Assembly: GCA_029262065.1 (NCBI GenBank)
Contig: JAJDAC010000050.1
Location: 32,545 to 96,544 of the forward strand
Direction: 5' to 3'
DNA: 64,000 nt
Source: Candidatus Krumholzibacteriota bacterium
GTDB lineage: Bacteria > Krumholzibacteriota > Krumholzibacteriia > JAJRXK01
Notes under the pieces: model-generated
Seen by the model: only the letters and a program-made list of their open reading frames with translations
What the model was told of the DNA's origin: nothing
The model's database searches: none
Position numbers and translations under genes: made by a program
In this document: positions 8,968 through 47,909 of the stretch, piece by piece
Layout of the letters: every line of letters begins with the position of its first letter
Numbering within the stretch: the first letter of the stretch is position 1

Positions 8968-9381
8968 ATGCAAAAACTGACCATTGCGATAGCCCTCATC
9001 AGCCTGCTGACTTCCGCTGCCTTGGCCTCCGAGGCTCTCGAGCCCGCCCCTGCCTCTGAGCAGAAGGCGCCAGTGGAACTGGTCCAGCCGAAGATTTCTC
9101 CTCGCCAGGCCTTTCGCGAGGGCCTGGATTCTCTCCGGGAAAATCTGCATCGCGATCTGGGCGAGCTGCGCGAGGTATCGAAATCGGCGCAGACCCCGGA
9201 GCAACGACTGGCGGCCGACCAGGTGAGTCAGGAACGCAAGCAACGCTACGAGTTGGATCTCCTGCGGCTCCAGTTGACCTTGGCGCAAGCTGAGGGTCAG
9301 GCGGAGAAATCCTCCCAGCTGCAAAACACCCTTGAGCGGCTCGAGGCTCTCTACTCCCAACGCGGGGAGGACAAACAATGA
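8968..9381 (+). CDS. Small secreted coiled-coil protein
   Basis: 137 residues. It has a signal peptide (residues 1-20) and then an acidic/glutamine-rich, almost wholly helical chain from about residue 40 that looks like a coiled coil. GAGGAGG stands 5 bases before the ATG. Its stop overlaps the ATG of the following 1495-residue surface protein (ATGA), so the two are translationally coupled and may work together, for example as a periplasmic chaperone or anchor. No family was recognised. Confidence 0.75.
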   Translation: MQKLTIAIALISLLTSAALASEALEPAPASEQKAPVELVQPKISPRQAFREGLDSLRENLHRDLGELREVSKSAQTPEQRLAADQVSQERKQRYELDLLRLQLTLAQAEGQAEKSSQLQNTLERLEALYSQRGEDKQ

Positions 9382-12300
9382 GGAGGCTGTCGACCCTGAT
9401 TCTGTTCTTGATGCTGGCCTCCGATGCCCAGGCGGGGTTGCGGACGCACGGACTTACCATTGACCTTTTGCCCGGCTCCTCGCCGCTGGAAGGTGCCACC
9501 TACGACGGCGTCTTTCGCGTTTCGTCACGCGGAGCCACTTCGTTTGCATTGAGTGCCATCGACTCCGACGACGACGGTTGGACCCAACTCTCGTTGGATA
9601 CGATCGGCTACACGCTCGCGGCCGGGGAGTCGATCGACTTGCCGTTCCAGCTCACCTGCCTGGATCTGTCCACCGGGTTCTACCTGGAGTATGTGGTGGA
9701 CGATCAGGTCTTCCGACGGGACTTCATCCCCGTATCGCGCGCGCTCCGCAACGCCGTGGAGGCTCCACCGGGAATCTTCGTGCCGGGCAAGCAGGAATCC
9801 TCCGAGGCCTCCCCTGATCCGTTGCCAAGGCCAGACGTTGCGGGACGCGATCGGCTCGGGACCACGACCGAAGGTCTGGACGACACGGGTGAGGACACCG
9901 CCGGTTTGGCCAAGGGTGTAGTTACGGTCCATGGACGGATCGTGTACCAACGCTGGGGTCAGGAATGGACCGGGGCCGATGGCGTTACCGTCCATCTGTG
10001 GGACGAGGACTCCGGTGCCGACGATTACCTGGGCGGCACGTCGACCGACGAGCAAGGTCGGTTCAGCGTGACATTTTTCACGGGTGAGAATCCGGACATC
10101 TACGCCGAGTTTCTGGCCGGAAATACCAAGGTCGAGGTCCAGGAGCCTTCGTTCTTCGAACCCATCTATTCATGGATCACCCCGACGTTTGCCAACCAGG
10201 CTAGCTCCGGCACGGTCAACCTGCCCGACTTCACAGCCCACGATTGGACCGGGCGACGGGTCATGCACCAGATCACGTCGGTCACACGGGCCTGGCGCTG
10301 GCTGTACGGACTGGGCTACGGACACATCGACGACGTTGATATCTTGTTCCCGGATTCGGACTGGCCGCACTACGAGTCGTTCGAGGAGGAGATCCATCTA
10401 CCCAGCACCTGGGGTTGGAACGACGGCACCATGTGGCACGAGTATGGGCATCACTTCATCGACGACTTCGGTGACTCCGACGGCGGGGAGTACTGCAACG
10501 CCGGGGACCGCTGTGATTCCGATGACGACTGCAAGCACTGTACCTGGTGCAAGGAGAACGAAGGCGTAGCCTGGTCCGAGGGCATCGCGCAGTTCTTCGC
10601 AGATCGTATCACGGTCTACGTGGACGACACCTACGGCTGGATGGATGGCGACGCGATCAATGGCAGGACTTTCGAGACCAACGACAAGTGCTGGTCTGGG
10701 AGTGGTGGCAATAACGCCTACGATGATCCCTCCAAGACCGAAGGGGCGCTGGCCGGCCTGATGCGTGACCTTGCCGATGGTGATGGCGACTCCGACCCAC
10801 GCGGTGGAGGACGTTCGTTCGACTACCTCCAGCTTGGATCGAAGTCCGTGTTGGATGTCGCGGCCATCGACGACCCCATCACGCCGTGGCAATTCATCAA
10901 CGCTTTCCGGGCCCGTCACCCATCCTTCGGGAACGGGATCTGGAACGCCGCCTGGAACAACGGCTACAACTTCGACGTGACCCCCCCGGGAACGGTGAGC
11001 AGTCTCACGTCGACCAGTCACATCACCAGCGGGGATTCGCCGGACGGGACCATCGATTTCCAGTGGACCACGCCCAGCGACGATCTTTCCGGGGTGTGGG
11101 GATACAGCCTGTACATCGCCAACACCCCGACCTTCCCGGATGCCAGCGTGGATCTGGACTCCACCGCACCGGTCGGCAACACCCAGGCCTACACCACCGG
11201 GGAGCTGGGGCCAGGCACGTACTATTTCTCGGTGCGCACGGTGGACAACGCCGGCAACTGGAGCGGGTCGTACATTTCGTTTGGTCCGATCACCGTGCGG
11301 GATCCGTATCCCGCCGACCTGGTCGCGGTACACCACCCCAGTTTCTTCGACGCGCCGCTGGTGCCCAGTAACTCGTCGGCGATGCCCAGCGGGCGGGGTA
11401 TTGCACCCAACACCCTGGGTCCGGTTACGCCGACCTACCTCAACCTGCAGTTGTTCAACTCGGGGGAACAGGCGACGCCGCCGGGGCTGATCGAGATCAC
11501 GCCCACGGTAGACGGTGTGTTGGCGACGGTGTTGTCCATTTCGTCGGCGAACCCGCTGGGGGGAATGGGTTACCTCGCATGGAACAACATCGGGCCGCTC
11601 CAGGTCCCAGGTGGTCGCCATACCATCGGGTATTGGGCGGACTCCGGGGAAGACCTGGCCGAGGCCAATGAGTTCGACAACCGCCATGTGGGTCAGTGGG
11701 TGTGGAGCCTTCCGGGAGTGGCATCAGGATTTACGCTCGGGCGTGGAACCCCGCCGTGGGTACATGCCGGCGGTGGGATCGAAAACAACTCGGATGGCAT
11801 CTCGATCGCAGTGGAGACCGGATTCGGCGGCGTGGTCATGTGGCCCGACAACGAAGCCGACAACTACGACCTGGTCCTCCATTCGGCGTCGAACGGATCG
11901 CAGCAGGGGTTTGAGCTGGCCACCAAGAAGGTGGATTCCCAGCGAGCCGTGGGATGTCTGGACGGTGTGCTCTACAACGGGTTCGGTATTCGCGTCAATA
12001 AGCTGGACGTGGCTACGGAACGTTGGGACAGCGAACGAACCGCAACCTACGGCGGGTACCAGATCCAGACCCTGATCAGTACCCCCATTCCCTTCAACGC
12101 GAGCCAGACCAGCTCGTGGGCGCAGGACGAACGGGTCACGGTGTTGCACTTCGACCTGCTTCCCGCCGACGTGGGTGAGGTCGAGGTCATCCTGCAGGCG
12201 GATCCCGCGGTGGGAAGAATGTGGCTGCGCGTCATGGACGGCGAGAACGATTGGTTCAACCTCCACAACCAACCCAAGGCCGACGACACGGATGCGAACG

Positions 12301-13865
12301 GTCTGGCTACCAAGCTCGTGGTACTGGATGAAGGAAAACACGGAATCGTGGTCTGGCGTGATCCGAAGGATCAACCGGATCCCGAGCGGCCTGCGTCGGC
12401 CACATCGTGGGACGTTCTGGTTCGGCCGGCCCGTCCGGACCCCGCGACCGTTACCCCTCCGGGTTGGGTCGAGACGTTCGTGCCGAGTCCGTTGCCCAAT
12501 GGCCAGGATATCCAGGTCGTGATCCCCGATGATCTGTATGGGAACGGGAGCACCTGGCTCAACGTGACCATGGCCAACCTGCGGGCCAATCCGGTTCTGC
12601 AGGTTCCCATGGAAGAGTACCTGGACGGCGAGCTGCTCATGAGCCGGACGGCCAGCCTGCTTGGCCACGCGCAGTTTTCCCTGAACAACCTCGGCCCGTT
12701 CACCATCCGCGGCGGACGCCATTCCCTGACCCACCGGCTGGATCCGCTGGACATCAAGGACGAGAACGACGAGACCAACAACGTCGCCGGTGGGCAGTGG
12801 GTCTGGACCGGCCTGCCGATGTCGGTGGGAAGTACTATCACCCGGGCGGTTCCTCCGGACCTCACCGGCGGTTGGGCCGACGTGAGCGTGTTCGGTACGC
12901 TGTTCTTCAACTCCGACGGACTTACGACTCCCATCCCGTCGCCGGCGGGAGAAGACGGAAGGTGGCACGGTCTCGCGGTGGTTCCGGGTTCGTCCAGCGA
13001 CGTCGACCTGCGGTTGCACAAGCAGGACGCATCGCTGTACGGAATGTACGGTGGCTTCGCCGAGGTCGAGGTCGCCTCGTCGGCGGGCGTTGGCTTGGTC
13101 GACTTCGTCCTGGTCAACCATCGCTTCCGGCAGCCGCGCCAGTACGACGCGGGCGTGATCCGTATGGAAGGCAACGAGGACTACACGGCAACCCTGGTCG
13201 AGTCGACCTGGTTGGGAGATCAACCCTCTGGCACGTTGGGACCCTTCGCCCTGGTGTCTGGCGAAGTGTTGCAGCTGCGGGAGATGACCCTGTCGGCCGG
13301 CCGGCACGTGATCGAAATCGGGAACCTGTCTGGCAACGCCGACCTCGGAGTCTCTCTGCACGCACCGGAACAATATCTGGCCGCACGCGATCTGGGGGTG
13401 CCGCGCGGCATCGCGTGGGTCGAGGAAGCCGGAGCCGACGAGAGCCTGATGGTGGACCTCGCCGCCGAGGGGAAATACTGTCTCGCGGTATGGAAGGTGG
13501 GTTCGGCCGACAAGGACCTGACCGCCACCTACCAGATCACCATCGACGACGGTGTTACCGGCGCGGATTCGACCCCGGCATCGAACCGGCGGGACAGGAT
13601 CGTGGGCATCCATCCCAATCCCTTCAATCCCCGGACGACGATCTCTTTCGAATTGGCTGATCGCACCTTTGTCAGCATGGGCATCTATGACCTGCGCGGC
13701 CGGTTGGTGCGCGAGCTGGTTGCAAAAGAGTGGGATGCCGGGCGCCACGAAGTGGTGTGGGACGGCATCGACGCCGCCGGGCGCATCGTCTCCAGCGGAG
13801 CCTACTTGGCCAAGCTGGAGGGTAGCGGGATTCGCAGCATCAGGAAGCTGACTCTGCTCAAGTAA
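9378..13865 (+). CDS. Giant secreted metallopeptidase-like protein with FN3/CARDB domains and FlgD-like tail
   Basis: 1495 residues with a signal peptide at 1-20. Residues about 280-540 contain a zincin motif, HEYGHHF (His354, Glu355, His358). A WSEG follows 43 residues later (Glu401), a spacing and context that fit a gluzincin-type third ligand, so peptidase activity is plausible. After it come a fibronectin III-like domain (about 540-640) and two CARDB-like adhesion domains, each with a LAEANEFDN- or KDENDETNN-type turn (about 650-780 and 1035-1145). Further beta domains follow, then a FlgD-like type IX-type tail (HPNPFNPRTTISF ... KLTLLK). Probably cell-surface or released. It is coupled to the small coiled-coil gene in front and followed by a hairpin at 13874-13905. 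Confidence 0.85.
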   Translation: MRRLSTLILFLMLASDAQAGLRTHGLTIDLLPGSSPLEGATYDGVFRVSSRGATSFALSAIDSDDDGWTQLSLDTIGYTLAAGESIDLPFQLTCLDLSTGFYLEYVVDDQVFRRDFIPVSRALRNAVEAPPGIFVPGKQESSEASPDPLPRPDVAGRDRLGTTTEGLDDTGEDTAGLAKGVVTVHGRIVYQRWGQEWTGADGVTVHLWDEDSGADDYLGGTSTDEQGRFSVTFFTGENPDIYAEFLAGNTKVEVQEPSFFEPIYSWITPTFANQASSGTVNLPDFTAHDWTGRRVMHQITSVTRAWRWLYGLGYGHIDDVDILFPDSDWPHYESFEEEIHLPSTWGWNDGTMWHEYGHHFIDDFGDSDGGEYCNAGDRCDSDDDCKHCTWCKENEGVAWSEGIAQFFADRITVYVDDTYGWMDGDAINGRTFETNDKCWSGSGGNNAYDDPSKTEGALAGLMRDLADGDGDSDPRGGGRSFDYLQLGSKSVLDVAAIDDPITPWQFINAFRARHPSFGNGIWNAAWNNGYNFDVTPPGTVSSLTSTSHITSGDSPDGTIDFQWTTPSDDLSGVWGYSLYIANTPTFPDASVDLDSTAPVGNTQAYTTGELGPGTYYFSVRTVDNAGNWSGSYISFGPITVRDPYPADLVAVHHPSFFDAPLVPSNSSAMPSGRGIAPNTLGPVTPTYLNLQLFNSGEQATPPGLIEITPTVDGVLATVLSISSANPLGGMGYLAWNNIGPLQVPGGRHTIGYWADSGEDLAEANEFDNRHVGQWVWSLPGVASGFTLGRGTPPWVHAGGGIENNSDGISIAVETGFGGVVMWPDNEADNYDLVLHSASNGSQQGFELATKKVDSQRAVGCLDGVLYNGFGIRVNKLDVATERWDSERTATYGGYQIQTLISTPIPFNASQTSSWAQDERVTVLHFDLLPADVGEVEVILQADPAVGRMWLRVMDGENDWFNLHNQPKADDTDANGLATKLVVLDEGKHGIVVWRDPKDQPDPERPASATSWDVLVRPARPDPATVTPPGWVETFVPSPLPNGQDIQVVIPDDLYGNGSTWLNVTMANLRANPVLQVPMEEYLDGELLMSRTASLLGHAQFSLNNLGPFTIRGGRHSLTHRLDPLDIKDENDETNNVAGGQWVWTGLPMSVGSTITRAVPPDLTGGWADVSVFGTLFFNSDGLTTPIPSPAGEDGRWHGLAVVPGSSSDVDLRLHKQDASLYGMYGGFAEVEVASSAGVGLVDFVLVNHRFRQPRQYDAGVIRMEGNEDYTATLVESTWLGDQPSGTLGPFALVSGEVLQLREMTLSAGRHVIEIGNLSGNADLGVSLHAPEQYLAARDLGVPRGIAWVEEAGADESLMVDLAAEGKYCLAVWKVGSADKDLTATYQITIDDGVTGADSTPASNRRDRIVGIHPNPFNPRTTISFELADRTFVSMGIYDLRGRLVRELVAKEWDAGRHEVVWDGIDAAGRIVSSGAYLAKLEGSGIRSIRKLTLLK

Positions 13866-14016: not shown

Positions 14017-14940
14017 ATGAGTCGCGTCGCTGTGATTGCCCTATTTCTTCTTACTTCCCTCTGCGTCTGCACGGTTGAGGCTCAGGCCAGCATCGTCTGG
14101 AAGTGGAGTTGGAAAGGCGAAGCGGGGCAGTTTGTCACCGACGGGGCTCTCGCAGAGGGATCTGCACCCGCCGGTACCTATAGTATCCTGGACTTCTCGG
14201 TAACGAACACGGCGTTGGGCGCGTCCGGCGCCGTTGTCGGATCGATTTCCGGTGGCGAGTACGATGAGGGATCTCAGCCCGGGCAGGGATTCTTCTGGGA
14301 CGGCCGCGCGGTGACTCAGTGGTTTCGGGACGGGGGCGTGCTTACCAACGGGGCGAACCTCTACGTCAGTGGTAGTGGCGATACGCGGTACCTGTTCGAA
14401 ATAGGCTTGTACCTGTTCAGGGAATTTAGCGGAGGTGACGCGGACGTCAGCTCCACGGTCGATATGACGCCATTGAAGGAACCGACCGAAACGATCTGCT
14501 GGAACTGGAGCTGGAACGGAGAGATGGGACAGATCACCACCGACGGGCTCCTGATCGGTGGCACCGCTCCGGCCGGTACCTACAGAATTCTCGATTTCTC
14601 GGTGACCGATACTGCTCTGGGTGGGTCCGGTGCCGTCGTTGGATCGATTGCAGGCGGGGAGTACGATGAGGCATCTCAGCCCGGGCAGGGATTCGTCTGG
14701 GATGGCAACGCAGTGACCCAGTGGTTTCGGGATGGGGGCGTGCTTACCAACGGGGCGAACTTCTACGCGACCGCCATCGGCGGTGGAAGGTATGTGTTCG
14801 CAATTGGCTTCTACGCGTTCAGGAATTCCGATGACGATGACGTTGACGACAGTTCCACCATCGATTTCGGGACGAAGGATCTGGAGTTACCGGCCTCGGC
14901 CGGGCAGGTTTCCTGGGGGCAGCTCAAGAGCCAGTATTGA
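14017..14940 (+). CDS. Secreted tandem-duplicated protein ending in SWGQLKSQY
   Basis: 307 residues with a signal peptide at 1-25. The mature chain is two copies of a 134-residue domain (period exactly 402 bases). Shared motifs are [IV]xWxWSW, APAGTY, DFSVT, SGGEYDE and QWFRDGGVLTNGANxY. The family was not recognised by name; the pattern looks like a beta-rich secreted domain. The last nine residues, SWGQLKSQY, match the ends of the otherwise unrelated secreted proteins at 25800-26492 and 47019-47909 and are proposed as a sorting tag. AAGGAGTCTCGGA precedes the ATG. It appears monocistronic. Confidence 0.8.
   Translation: MSRVAVIALFLLTSLCVCTVEAQASIVWKWSWKGEAGQFVTDGALAEGSAPAGTYSILDFSVTNTALGASGAVVGSISGGEYDEGSQPGQGFFWDGRAVTQWFRDGGVLTNGANLYVSGSGDTRYLFEIGLYLFREFSGGDADVSSTVDMTPLKEPTETICWNWSWNGEMGQITTDGLLIGGTAPAGTYRILDFSVTDTALGGSGAVVGSIAGGEYDEASQPGQGFVWDGNAVTQWFRDGGVLTNGANFYATAIGGGRYVFAIGFYAFRNSDDDDVDDSSTIDFGTKDLELPASAGQVSWGQLKSQY
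14092..14895 (+). repeat. Tandem 402-bp coding duplication
   Basis: Two units, 14092-14493 and 14494-14895, keep an exact 402-base register. DNA similarity is uneven: one stretch around 14317-14366 is nearly identical to 14719-14768, while flanking codons have diverged. This suggests an old duplication with local gene conversion or strong constraint. Confidence 0.8.
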
Positions 14941-15185: not shown

Positions 15186-16391
15186 ATGAACCTGTTCCGG
15201 AATCACCGTATTGCCGCAGTTGCCTTCGCCGTCATGTTGATGGTGGTCGGTTGCGGTGATGCTTTGGTCGAAAATACATCCCCTCTTACCGAAACCGCCG
15301 ATCTAGCCCCGAACAAGACCGGCACACCCTCTTGGTTGGTCCTCATGCAGCCAGGAGTTGCCCCCGGCCCCGTGGCTTCTCGCAACCAGCTGACGGTGAG
15401 TGGTTACTATGCGGCGGGCGATCTGGCCCTGCTCGAGGGCAACGTTAACCCAGTCGATCTTGAGAACGATCCCGACGTTTTTCTCGCTCAACAGAACCTG
15501 GCCATCAGCCTGGGGCCCATCGACTTGATCATGGGTTTCTACGAGGGCGAGCTGACCATGACGAACGTTCGTACCCAACCCTCGCTCGCGCCCATGCTTC
15601 TGGACCAGGTCCACGCCGCGGCTGCGGGTGGACTGGTACGGGCGGCTGTCCTGGACACAGGTATTGATCCCAACCATTCCCATCTGGCCAACCGATGGAT
15701 ACTCGACCCCGTCGCCGAATTGGGCGATCCGTTCGAAGCCAAGAACAACCGCGACGATGACTTCGACGGATTGACCGACGAGGGGTACGGCCACGGCACC
15801 CACGTGGCCGGAACCATTCTGACGGTGGCTCCTGGCGCCAAGGTAGTTCCCTACAAAGTACTCGGCGAAGACGGCAACGGCAGCGACTACACCTTGGCGG
15901 TGGGGTTGATGGCAGCCAAGAACGCGGCTGTGGACGTCATCAACATTAGCCTGAGCCTGAACGACAATTCGCCGGTGATCGAAGCGATTCTCGATCGTGC
16001 CAAAGCTCTTGGCATCGAAATTTTCGCAGCGGCGGGTAACACGGGTGCGGACCCGGTATTTCCGGCGACGCATTCTTCCGTGTGGTCGGTGGCCTCGACC
16101 GACGCTTCCGACGCCTTGTCAGCCTTCTCTGCACGCGGTGCCGTGGAATTCGCCGCACCCGGCGAGGGAATTGTAAGCAGCTTCCCCAACCAACGCATGG
16201 CAGTGGGAGATGGCACCTCCATGGCATGTGCGGTGGCATCAGGAGCAGCGTGCCTCATGCTCGGGCCGGGTCCGTACCTGGCCAATGACCCGCTGGCCGA
16301 ATTGCGCGTGCACACTGCACCCATCACACCGGCCACCGCCGTCCACTCCGGTCGTGTCGATCCCTTCGAAGCCTACGAAATGGGACCGTAG
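15186..16391 (+). CDS. Subtilisin-like (S8) serine protease lipoprotein
   Basis: 401 residues from ATG 15186 (GGGAGAA upstream). An in-frame start 153 bases earlier lacks a ribosome site and would bury the lipobox. Residues 1-25 end in a lipobox (MVVGC). The catalytic triad is complete: Asp157 (VLDTGID), His203 (HGTHVAG), Ser345 (GTSMA), with the oxyanion Asn in AAGNTG. A propeptide-like segment covers about 30-135. An acidic stretch NNRDDDFDGLTDEG between Asp and His resembles a calcium loop. It is predicted to act outside the inner membrane as a lipid-anchored endopeptidase. It lacks the FlgD-like tail seen on other exported proteins here. Confidence 0.9.
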   Translation: MNLFRNHRIAAVAFAVMLMVVGCGDALVENTSPLTETADLAPNKTGTPSWLVLMQPGVAPGPVASRNQLTVSGYYAAGDLALLEGNVNPVDLENDPDVFLAQQNLAISLGPIDLIMGFYEGELTMTNVRTQPSLAPMLLDQVHAAAAGGLVRAAVLDTGIDPNHSHLANRWILDPVAELGDPFEAKNNRDDDFDGLTDEGYGHGTHVAGTILTVAPGAKVVPYKVLGEDGNGSDYTLAVGLMAAKNAAVDVINISLSLNDNSPVIEAILDRAKALGIEIFAAAGNTGADPVFPATHSSVWSVASTDASDALSAFSARGAVEFAAPGEGIVSSFPNQRMAVGDGTSMACAVASGAACLMLGPGPYLANDPLAELRVHTAPITPATAVHSGRVDPFEAYEMGP

Positions 16392-25763: not shown

Positions 25764-25799
25764 ACGAATCCTCCCGGTACCCGGACGATGGAGGTTCCA

Positions 25800-26492
25800 A
25801 TGCGCCTATTGATCGTGTTTTCCATTCTCTTGCTGGCCGTGCCCTCGCCCGCGGACGTTCCAGGTGAACCACCCGAGTTCAGCGACCTCGAGTTGGATCT
25901 GATCTGTGGTATCACGGCGCCCACGTCGGTTCTCATTTCCATGACCATCGGTGTCAATTTCGATGGGGGCGTGCAAGGCCTGGCGTTGGAACGAAGCGAG
26001 TTGGGAAACTGCGCCTCGGCGGTGCGCATCAACGAAATCCAGTACGGTACGCTCGCGGCTGGCGCCCACACGGTCATGTGGACCGACGCATCGGCCGTGT
26101 TCGGCATCGCCTATCGCTATCGGGTCATTGGTTTGAAATCGAACGGTGACGAAGTTTCTCTGTGGCCCTCCTTCGACATGGCGTCTCCCGTCGACTACGC
26201 TACCTGCGGCGATCCGGTCGTGGGCCACGGGCTTATCACGTCGGATATTGCGCCGGGGCTGTTGGAACCCTGCGACGGCGGCTGCTGGGACTTTTTTACC
26301 GTGGAGGTAGGCGACCCCATTCTGGATCCGTTTGTGGAAAGCGGAATTCCCGTTCAGTTGATTGGCTCGATCGACTGCACGTTGGGTAATGTCGAAGGCT
26401 GCCACCTCAACGTGACCGAGGTCATCGCGGTGCCTTGCCCCGTGGTGGCGACGCAAAAGGACAGCTGGGGCGCGGTGAAGGCGCGATTCTAG
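25800..26492 (+). CDS. Secreted Ig/FN3-like protein ending in SWGAVKARF
   Basis: 230 residues from ATG 25800, with GGAGG 6 bases upstream. The signal peptide covers residues 1-19. Residues about 35-120 look like a fibronectin III/Ig-like domain (alternating strands, AYRYRVIGL). The second half has six cysteines and no recognised fold. The final nine residues, SWGAVKARF, match the ends of 14017-14940 and 47019-47909. The stop codon overlaps that of the convergent hemerythrin gene by four bases. Confidence 0.75.
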   Translation: MRLLIVFSILLLAVPSPADVPGEPPEFSDLELDLICGITAPTSVLISMTIGVNFDGGVQGLALERSELGNCASAVRINEIQYGTLAAGAHTVMWTDASAVFGIAYRYRVIGLKSNGDEVSLWPSFDMASPVDYATCGDPVVGHGLITSDIAPGLLEPCDGGCWDFFTVEVGDPILDPFVESGIPVQLIGSIDCTLGNVEGCHLNVTEVIAVPCPVVATQKDSWGAVKARF

Positions 26493-47018: not shown

Positions 47019-47909
47019 ATGTTTCGGGGCTTCATGGTGTGTCTAATGTTGCTCGTGCCGCGAATGTGCACGGGTGGTCCGGGTCAGTTTTCCTACCTGG
47101 AGACCGTGCACGAATGGCAGAACGACTCCTTGAAGGGGTGTGACGAACTCATGGACGTCATACTTCCCGGCCTGTTCTGTGATTCCTGGGAGAGTGGTTG
47201 TCTGGGTGGGTGCAATGGTCCCAAGTCGGCGTACGTGTTTGGTCCTACCGCGTACTCTCCGCTGTGGGGGACCCAGCGCAATATGTATGTAATTGTTGGC
47301 TACGGTACCATTCGAGACGGGCTCGTGCCGGCGAAGCAACACTTTCTATTGTCCACGTATACGCAGGATCCCGTGCAAGGGGAAGTTCCGGGGGCGTATG
47401 TGCCCAGAGGTGGGATCAGTTTCGATCTTCGAATCCGGGATTTTCTGTTCGACAACGGGAGCTTCTACGATGGACTGGATCTCTCCAGACTGTCGCTTGC
47501 CTGGAACCACCTGGTGGATGTGGACGCCGGGGAGTACTACACTGGCGGCGGCGGTTGTGATTCCTACTACGAAGGTTGCAATGGGTGGTGGCGGCGTCTA
47601 CATGCGTCGGCCATCCTGGCGCGCCCCGAAATTGCTACGTTCGATGGGGAAGTATCGGCGTCTGCATCGACTCCACCTCAGAAGTATTTCGAGTGGGAGG
47701 CCGTGAGTTTTGCCATGTACCTGGCGTTCGAACATCCGGACGGAGACGCGGTCGCCGCCGACTTCGGGATTGGGCAGTACGTCACCGAGTGGCGTCATTG
47801 CACTCCCGAGCCGATCATCGAATTCATGGAATGGTCGACGCCAATCCTGGGGCACGGTGGCGTACCCACGCAATCGTCTTCCTGGGGTGCTATCAAGGCC
47901 AGGTACTAG
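47019..47909 (+). CDS. Secreted protein ending in SWGAIKARY
   Basis: 296 residues with AGGAGG 6 bases before the ATG. The signal peptide covers residues 1-19. The mature chain is beta-rich with clustered Cys and Tyr/Gly segments (CDSWESGCLGGCNG, YYTGGGGCDSYYEGCNGWW). No family was recognised. The last nine residues, SWGAIKARY, match those of 14017-14940 and 25800-26492. The following gene starts directly after its stop codon, indicating an operon of two. Confidence 0.75.
   Translation: MFRGFMVCLMLLVPRMCTGGPGQFSYLETVHEWQNDSLKGCDELMDVILPGLFCDSWESGCLGGCNGPKSAYVFGPTAYSPLWGTQRNMYVIVGYGTIRDGLVPAKQHFLLSTYTQDPVQGEVPGAYVPRGGISFDLRIRDFLFDNGSFYDGLDLSRLSLAWNHLVDVDAGEYYTGGGGCDSYYEGCNGWWRRLHASAILARPEIATFDGEVSASASTPPQKYFEWEAVSFAMYLAFEHPDGDAVAADFGIGQYVTEWRHCTPEPIIEFMEWSTPILGHGGVPTQSSSWGAIKARY

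Follow-up and report, generated by a model that had tools for sequence, protein, structure and literature searches.

A short C-terminal tail shared by unrelated predicted exported proteins of Krumholzibacteriota is a probable sorting tag that may be read by PorV-family carriers

In the LPXTG/sortase system a C-terminal linear motif sets the location of unrelated exported proteins, and LPXTG, PEP-CTERM, MYXO-CTERM and type IX C-terminal domains have each led to an enzyme or a transport system. Cargo-loading peptides of encapsulins and bacterial microcompartments are short terminal, probably amphipathic helices that follow a flexible linker and act in the cytoplasm. The type IX system is described as Bacteroidetes-specific in the available text of several papers. 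Its carriers read C-terminal signals in Flavobacterium (PMC12618676, PMC10994853; available text), where type A domains have a single conserved translocon contact residue, a lysine (available text of PMC10994853), and the shortest type IX signals reported in the available text of PMC11969387 are domains of 40-51 residues.

The window analysed here is a stretch of 64,000 nucleotides from a Candidatus Krumholzibacteriota genome, in which three genes on the forward strand code for predicted exported proteins with similar ends. Direct reading affirmed that the 307-aa product of 14017..14940 terminates exactly in SWGQLKSQY, as a preliminary description of this DNA had claimed. The motif occupies 14911-14937 and the TGA stop 14938-14940, so that this first copy with its stop spans 14911..14940; the end formerly assigned, 14940, is correct with the TGA included, whereas the assigned start, 14914, is that of the Trp codon and the Ser codon begins at 14911. 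The two further proteins that had been reported to share this ending were also found. SWGAVKARF with a TAG stop (26463..26492), just downstream of PVVATQKD with its V-x-T linker, closes the protein encoded at 25788..26492, and SWGAIKARY with a TAG stop (47880..47909), just downstream of GVPTQSS, closes the 296-aa protein encoded at 47019..47909. The three proteins form separate BLAST clusters, in keeping with the earlier statement that they lack mutual similarity, and the internal duplication noticed in the first one was seen again, each of its five homologues having a single such domain. Searches of Pfam and NCBIfam gave no match for window protein 1 and no family above cut-off for window protein 2, a protein search with window protein 3 returned this protein alone, and none of the three matched an NCBIfam model even at E 10. 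A structure model of window protein 1 built from six sequences had a mean pLDDT of 37.5, and its short tag helix was not counted as evidence. An Rfam scan of the window yielded nothing above gathering scores. As context outside the tag, the neighbouring gene on the same strand (9378..13865) codes for a 1495-aa protein with a FlgD-like, type IX-like C-terminal domain (FlgD_ig, 34.5 bits at a cut-off of 27; Por_Secre_tail, 17.1 bits, under its cut-off of 27). The first tagged protein is closely followed by a gene (15186-16391) that codes for a subtilase (Peptidase_S8) and whose start is lipoprotein-like.

The genome of the window (G000; 5.77 Mb, 59 contigs) was scanned with the pattern [ST]WGxxKxx[FY] followed by a stop, and reversed patterns and internal positions served as chance controls. 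The pattern gave 31 exact C-terminal matches, including the first window copy, and its reversed form none; one of the 30 copies viewed (L012) lay in a reading frame that lacks a start codon and meets a stop 17 codons before it. A sample of 856 genes, called with our own hexamer caller on four contigs (1,103,818 bases), contained 17 terminal and no internal instances of the strict form. A broad form, [ST][WFMY][GSNA]x[VILMFA][KR]xx[FYW] within 10 residues of the C-terminus, was found 35 times at the terminal position and twice internally, when the internal rate predicts 0.06 terminal instances. Signal-peptide-like starts were present in 32 of the 35 under a lenient rule that 385 of all 856 genes pass, which bears out the proposed enrichment at the C-termini of predicted exported proteins. 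Of the three failing genes, two are the 3' parts of thioredoxin-like genes interrupted by TGA, and the 5' part of each opens with signal-peptide-like sequence.

In an overlapping and partly tag-selected sample, a similar rule was passed by 25/25 strict-tagged proteins and by 411/917 others. Altogether, 62 of 68 tagged proteins of this genome have a predicted signal peptide (59 type I and 3 lipoprotein-like, by our own lenient rule), and, of the six that have none, two are parts of TGA-interrupted genes in which a start of this kind precedes the interruption. Contig C27 was sampled for its size, and for C17 and C41 it was also known beforehand that they hold tags, so that 35 per 1.1 Mb may be slightly high. 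C5, C42 and some further pieces, picked for tags or type IX genes, enter the sequence logos, clusters and tail swaps reported below, and the C5 and C42 pieces also enter the comparison of 25/25 with 411/917 and the neighbourhood statistics. Extrapolation from 13 tagged proteins per 549 kb to 35 per 1.1 Mb puts their number at about 140-180 in this genome.

Codon usage supported the earlier proposal of selection at the protein level. In 30 of the 31 copies of the genome, the Ser/Thr position is written in seven codons and the Gly position in all four. Since codon choice varies at every degenerate position, the constraint acts on the protein, and a DNA-level element was ruled out. The tag is terminal beyond chance, conserved at the protein level and carried by unrelated proteins.

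We grouped 164 entries into 65 BLAST clusters; some genes are represented twice among the entries, and a small number of short fragments may each make up a separate cluster. The genome sample alone comprised 68 tagged proteins in 40 clusters. The tagged bodies are unrelated across the 65 clusters, and the full-length homology that the preliminary description had set up as the competing explanation was not found. One representative from each cluster gave the consensus [P/V/A]-V-[A/P]-T-E-x-x-S-W-G-x-[V/I]-K-[A/S]-[R/L]-[F/Y], which contains no Cys. Upstream of the core, V, T and E occur in 39, 33 and 32 of the 65 representatives, respectively, and constitute an independent signal because the regular expression did not contain them. 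The best conserved tag position is Lys/Arg. At the Trp position, Phe is found in 8/65 and Met in 4/65 representatives, Gly is replaced by Ser in 8/65 and Lys by Arg in 7/65. The form first proposed, SWGx[LVI]K[AS][RQ][YF], was too narrow with respect to these substitutions, to the frequent V-x-T segment before the core and to trailing residues. Likewise, the motif abuts the stop codon in the three window copies, as had been claimed, but not as a rule: the last tag residue is the protein end in 35/65 representatives, and 1-6 further residues follow in 30/65.

Within one tagged family, all 120 homologues retain the core [ST][WF]Gxx[KR], tag identity is 0.89 against 0.52 for the body, and the sole invariant alignment columns are the Gly and Lys of the tag. 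The final aromatic residue is absent in 7 members, and 110/120 run past it or lack it. Judged from this alignment, the tag is under purifying selection. In a model of this family of moderate confidence (mean pLDDT 71.2), most of the beta body scores 70-85 and the tag scores under 50, so that in the one usable model the tag is predicted to lie outside the folded part. A segment that is predicted to be unstructured and nevertheless is the most conserved part of the protein is as would be expected of a binding peptide. It is plausible that the tag forms a helix with the conserved positions on one face, although the helical-period test is partly circular, as the regular expression fixed those positions. 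Among the 68 tagged proteins, one has a hydrophobic stretch in the last 50 residues and is a possible membrane-helix exception. A tagged tandem NTF2-like protein (L159:7632-9296, contig C42) carries internal tag-like sequences, SWSKLKTLY and SWGSLKLAY, with more protein after each; these are possibly relics of fused tagged genes.

To cover the phylum, 80 Krumholzibacteriota genomes, all of one class, were scanned with three patterns, which combined detected the tag in 79/80. The pattern of the tag followed directly by a stop matched in 27/80 genomes, with 128 matches summed and 2 for the reversed pattern. Its last codon, TRR, also admits TGG, and 5 of the 128 matches end in TGG and not in a stop; they are all the matches of this kind in G036, G054, G063 and G079, leaving 23/80 genomes. 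With one Arg or Ser residue between tag and stop, 76/80 genomes matched, with 640 matches summed (some of which may end in TGG) and none for the reversed pattern; the 38 genomes of family f6 were all tagged under this pattern and supplied 479 of the 640. The SW[ST] form with an extra residue was found in 47/80 genomes (again, some matches may end in TGG), with 3 reversed matches. Genome G002 had no match to the first two patterns but 11 to the SW[ST] form, and in 400 kb of it the broad regular expression found 5 terminal and 1 internal instances. Only G076, which is 65% complete, matched none of the three patterns. Two homologues of one tagged family, P0014 and P0084, are named as Candidatus Krumholzibacteriota, P0014 being letter-for-letter a tagged protein of G024; P0089, a homologue that one source names Bacteroidales, we take to be a probable binning error. 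Similar protein ends may occur in related candidate phyla.

The tagged cargo is diverse. Malectin, Calx-beta, NHL, CBM96, PPC, DUF1349, NosD and glucose/sorbosone dehydrogenase domains were each detected in 1/40 representatives, and one tagged protein resembles the choice-of-anchor F family below cut-off. The median length of tagged proteins is 225 residues, that of proteins with a type IX-like domain 743. Type IX-like domains were located by our own PNPFN-type pattern and not by a profile; so defined, tag and domain were found together in none of the 68 tagged proteins, and 46 other proteins carry the domain. In three of the 40 tagged clusters of the genome a homologue has a FlgD-type, type IX-like domain in place of the tag. 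The tagged protein L166:10269-11036 (contig C24) shares a 205-residue domain of 57% identity with the product of the adjoining gene, which has a type IX-like domain end. Among the homologues of window protein 1, P0002 has the variant tag RWGRIKMLYR, P0004 (named Verrucomicrobiota) a PEP-CTERM tail in the slot of the tag, and P0003, P0005 and P0006 a Pro-rich stretch followed by a conserved Cys-containing tail, GKVTLCHKGR...HGDTLGGCE, which is possibly another C-terminal module. Comparison of these homologous proteins indicates that the tag occupies the slot held by a type IX-like domain or a PEP-CTERM tail in their relatives.

The commonest tagged family (P0009, contig C56) is cohesin-like by fold, with cohesins as best Foldseek hits (best E 1.1e-3). 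Elsewhere, dockerin modules were detected in two neighbouring protease-like genes (L128:11293-13517), the match exceeding the Pfam cut-off in one gene and falling slightly short of it in the other. At locus L097 (contig C27, 47424-47987 and 48059-48622), two adjacent thioredoxin-like genes with signal-peptide-like starts and SFGxVKALF tags contain an in-frame TGA at GYG-[TGA]-xFC, a UxxC-like site; by sequence, this pair looks like exported selenoproteins.

Comparison with the described sorting signals placed the tag close to several and inside none. Type IX C-terminal domains (types A and B; TIGR04183, PF18962) are likewise C-terminal signals on Sec-exported cargo with unrelated bodies, domain and tag swap on homologous bodies within one genome, and each has a conserved basic residue (for the domain, available text of PMC10994853). 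Tagged proteins have predicted Sec signal peptides, and their genomes have homologues of SprA, PorV and PorU. However, type IX domains are folded beta structures of at least 40 residues (available text of PMC11969387), whereas the tag is a linear sequence of 9-16 residues with a pLDDT below 50 and without a folded beta domain. PEP-CTERM signals are, like the tag, short C-terminal tails on many unrelated exported proteins, yet the tag differs in motif and has neither PEP box, membrane helix nor Arg-rich end. MYXO-CTERM resembles it in being phylum-wide with dozens of carriers per genome (available text of PMC11980579). Both MYXO-CTERM and GlyGly-CTERM are tripartite with a membrane helix that the tag does not have, and MYXO-CTERM needs a Cys, which is missing from the tag. 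The tagged proteins also lack the LPXTG box, membrane helix and basic tail of LPXTG cargo. Cargo-loading peptides share with the tag the linear peptide after a flexible linker, but they are cytoplasmic whereas the tagged proteins are predicted to be exported.

The claim that no named signal has this form was sustained: each NCBIfam model matched at most 2 of 40 tagged representatives, and none models this tail. A search of published papers gave none with SWGAIK, SWGSIK, SWGxxK, SWGxIK, WGxIK or TWGAIK, and the available text of the publications found for the phylum, for type IX secretion and for sorting signals in general contained no such tag. The proposal of a new C-terminal tag is supported by these results, and the usage of the tail suggests that it very probably serves in sorting.

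To find candidate readers, we searched the 80 genomes for known families. Of those tested, homologues of the type IX proteins SprA, PorU and PorV are the ones that occur throughout the phylum, which contrasts with the Bacteroidetes-specific description in several papers. SprA homologues were detected in 80/80 genomes (72 above cut-off), PorU homologues in 80/80 (54 above cut-off; the 26 below may match the peptidase or tail part only) and the PorV family in 80/80, here always above cut-off, each genome giving between 2 and 17 matches. In the genome of the window, SprA maps to contig C32 (20779-27723) and PorU and PorV to contig C14 (86247-90798). Exosortase was above cut-off in 28/80 genomes, but family f6, whose 38 genomes are all tagged, gave no exosortase match, and this distribution ruled it out as reader. 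In the genome of the window itself, a single gene (contig C14, 311140-311889) exceeds the Pfam cut-off for exosortase; judged from this gene, the genome may run a PEP-CTERM system alongside the tag. Rhombosortase, expected for GlyGly-CTERM, and PorP/SprF, the carriers of type B domains, were above cut-off in 0/80 genomes each and were ruled out likewise. Weak rhombosortase matches in 77/80 genomes were also obtained in 14/14 control genomes and are probably general rhomboids; weak PorP/SprF matches occurred in 33/80, the genome of the window not included. The neighbourhood of PorV genes showed no clear link: 1.6 Mb contained three, one with two tagged genes nearby. Tagged genes lie near genes with type IX domains in 5/25 cases compared to 53/882 for other genes (p 0.018, a weak link), and compared to 13/204 for untagged small signal-peptide genes (p 0.033).

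We propose that the tail is a phylum-wide sorting address on unrelated predicted exported proteins which may be read by an outer-membrane carrier of the PorV family, and we assign this reading a probability of about 0.45. Cargo would cross the inner membrane by Sec export. The tail, composed of the V-x-T linker and then probably a short helix that presents Trp, the hydrophobic position, Lys and Phe/Tyr on the same side, would dock as a linear peptide on an outer-membrane receptor, and this receptor, most likely of the PorV family, would carry the protein to the cell surface. On this view, small proteins would use the tag as a minimal substitute for the large type IX domain. Stated more broadly, we consider it rather probable that Krumholzibacteriota possess an undescribed sorting route for small exported proteins: more than 100 of them per genome, as extrapolated for the genome of the window, would be sent to the surface by some 16 unfolded residues at the C-terminus (V-x-T linker plus SWGxVKxxF helix) that include neither a membrane anchor nor a domain. 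The reader would be either PorV-family carriers, with the tail as the smallest known type IX signal, or another receptor.

A PorV-type carrier is favoured because SprA, PorU and PorV-family homologues span the phylum and because, in Flavobacterium, carriers of this system already recognise C-terminal signals; its assignment as reader is put forward tentatively. Co-occurrence inside the phylum cannot discriminate, as none of the 80 genomes lacks a match to SprA or PorV. Several observations speak against PorV and type IX reading: the tag of 9-16 residues has no beta domain, as opposed to the shortest signals of 40-51 residues in the available text of PMC11969387, the neighbourhood link to PorV genes is not clear and that to type IX-domain genes is weak, some PorU matches may reflect a part of the protein, and 3/68 tagged proteins are lipoprotein-like by our own rule and would already be anchored. 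Possible too, with a probability of about one third, is a dedicated machine outside the type IX system, in which a receptor, protease or ligase of the phylum would retain, anchor or export the tagged proteins. Such a machine would accord with a tag unlike any known type IX domain, with the distribution of the known C-terminal-tag enzymes searched for, which does not follow that of the tag, and with the precedent of the Myxococcota, whose phylum-wide C-terminal tag has an enzyme of its own, myxosortase (available text of PMC11980579). However, the five known families searched provided no candidate for it, and tagged clusters swap tails with type IX-like-domain proteins in the same genome.

These swaps also weigh against the idea that the tail serves in assembly or adhesion, as a short helix through which secreted proteins would dock with one another or with a common scaffold outside the cell: the tag shares its slot with tails known to sort, it is found on many unrelated domain types, and cohesin-dockerin binding would need no such tail. 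We regard this as unlikely, although it would fit the cohesin-like fold of the most frequent tagged family and the dockerin modules of secreted-protease-like genes in the genome, and although a conserved, unstructured and probably helical tail suits docking. Far less probable is a quality-control or degradation tag for a periplasmic PDZ protease recognising a free C-terminal Phe/Tyr. The aromatic residue that would be recognised is the last one in 35/65 representatives, but residues follow it in the other 30, unlike in DegS-like PDZ recognition, 110/120 members of one family run past it or lack it, and conservation is highest at Gly and Lys. Recognition of a free C-terminus is ruled out in general, as many copies continue beyond the aromatic. 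That the three window tails are alike by chance or by full-length homology is of negligible probability and was ruled out by the empty reversed scan of the genome, the 35 terminal against 2 internal instances and the separate BLAST clusters.

The tag gives many unnamed proteins of a little-studied phylum a shared class. If a PorV-family carrier does read it, what type IX secretion requires at minimum would shrink several-fold.
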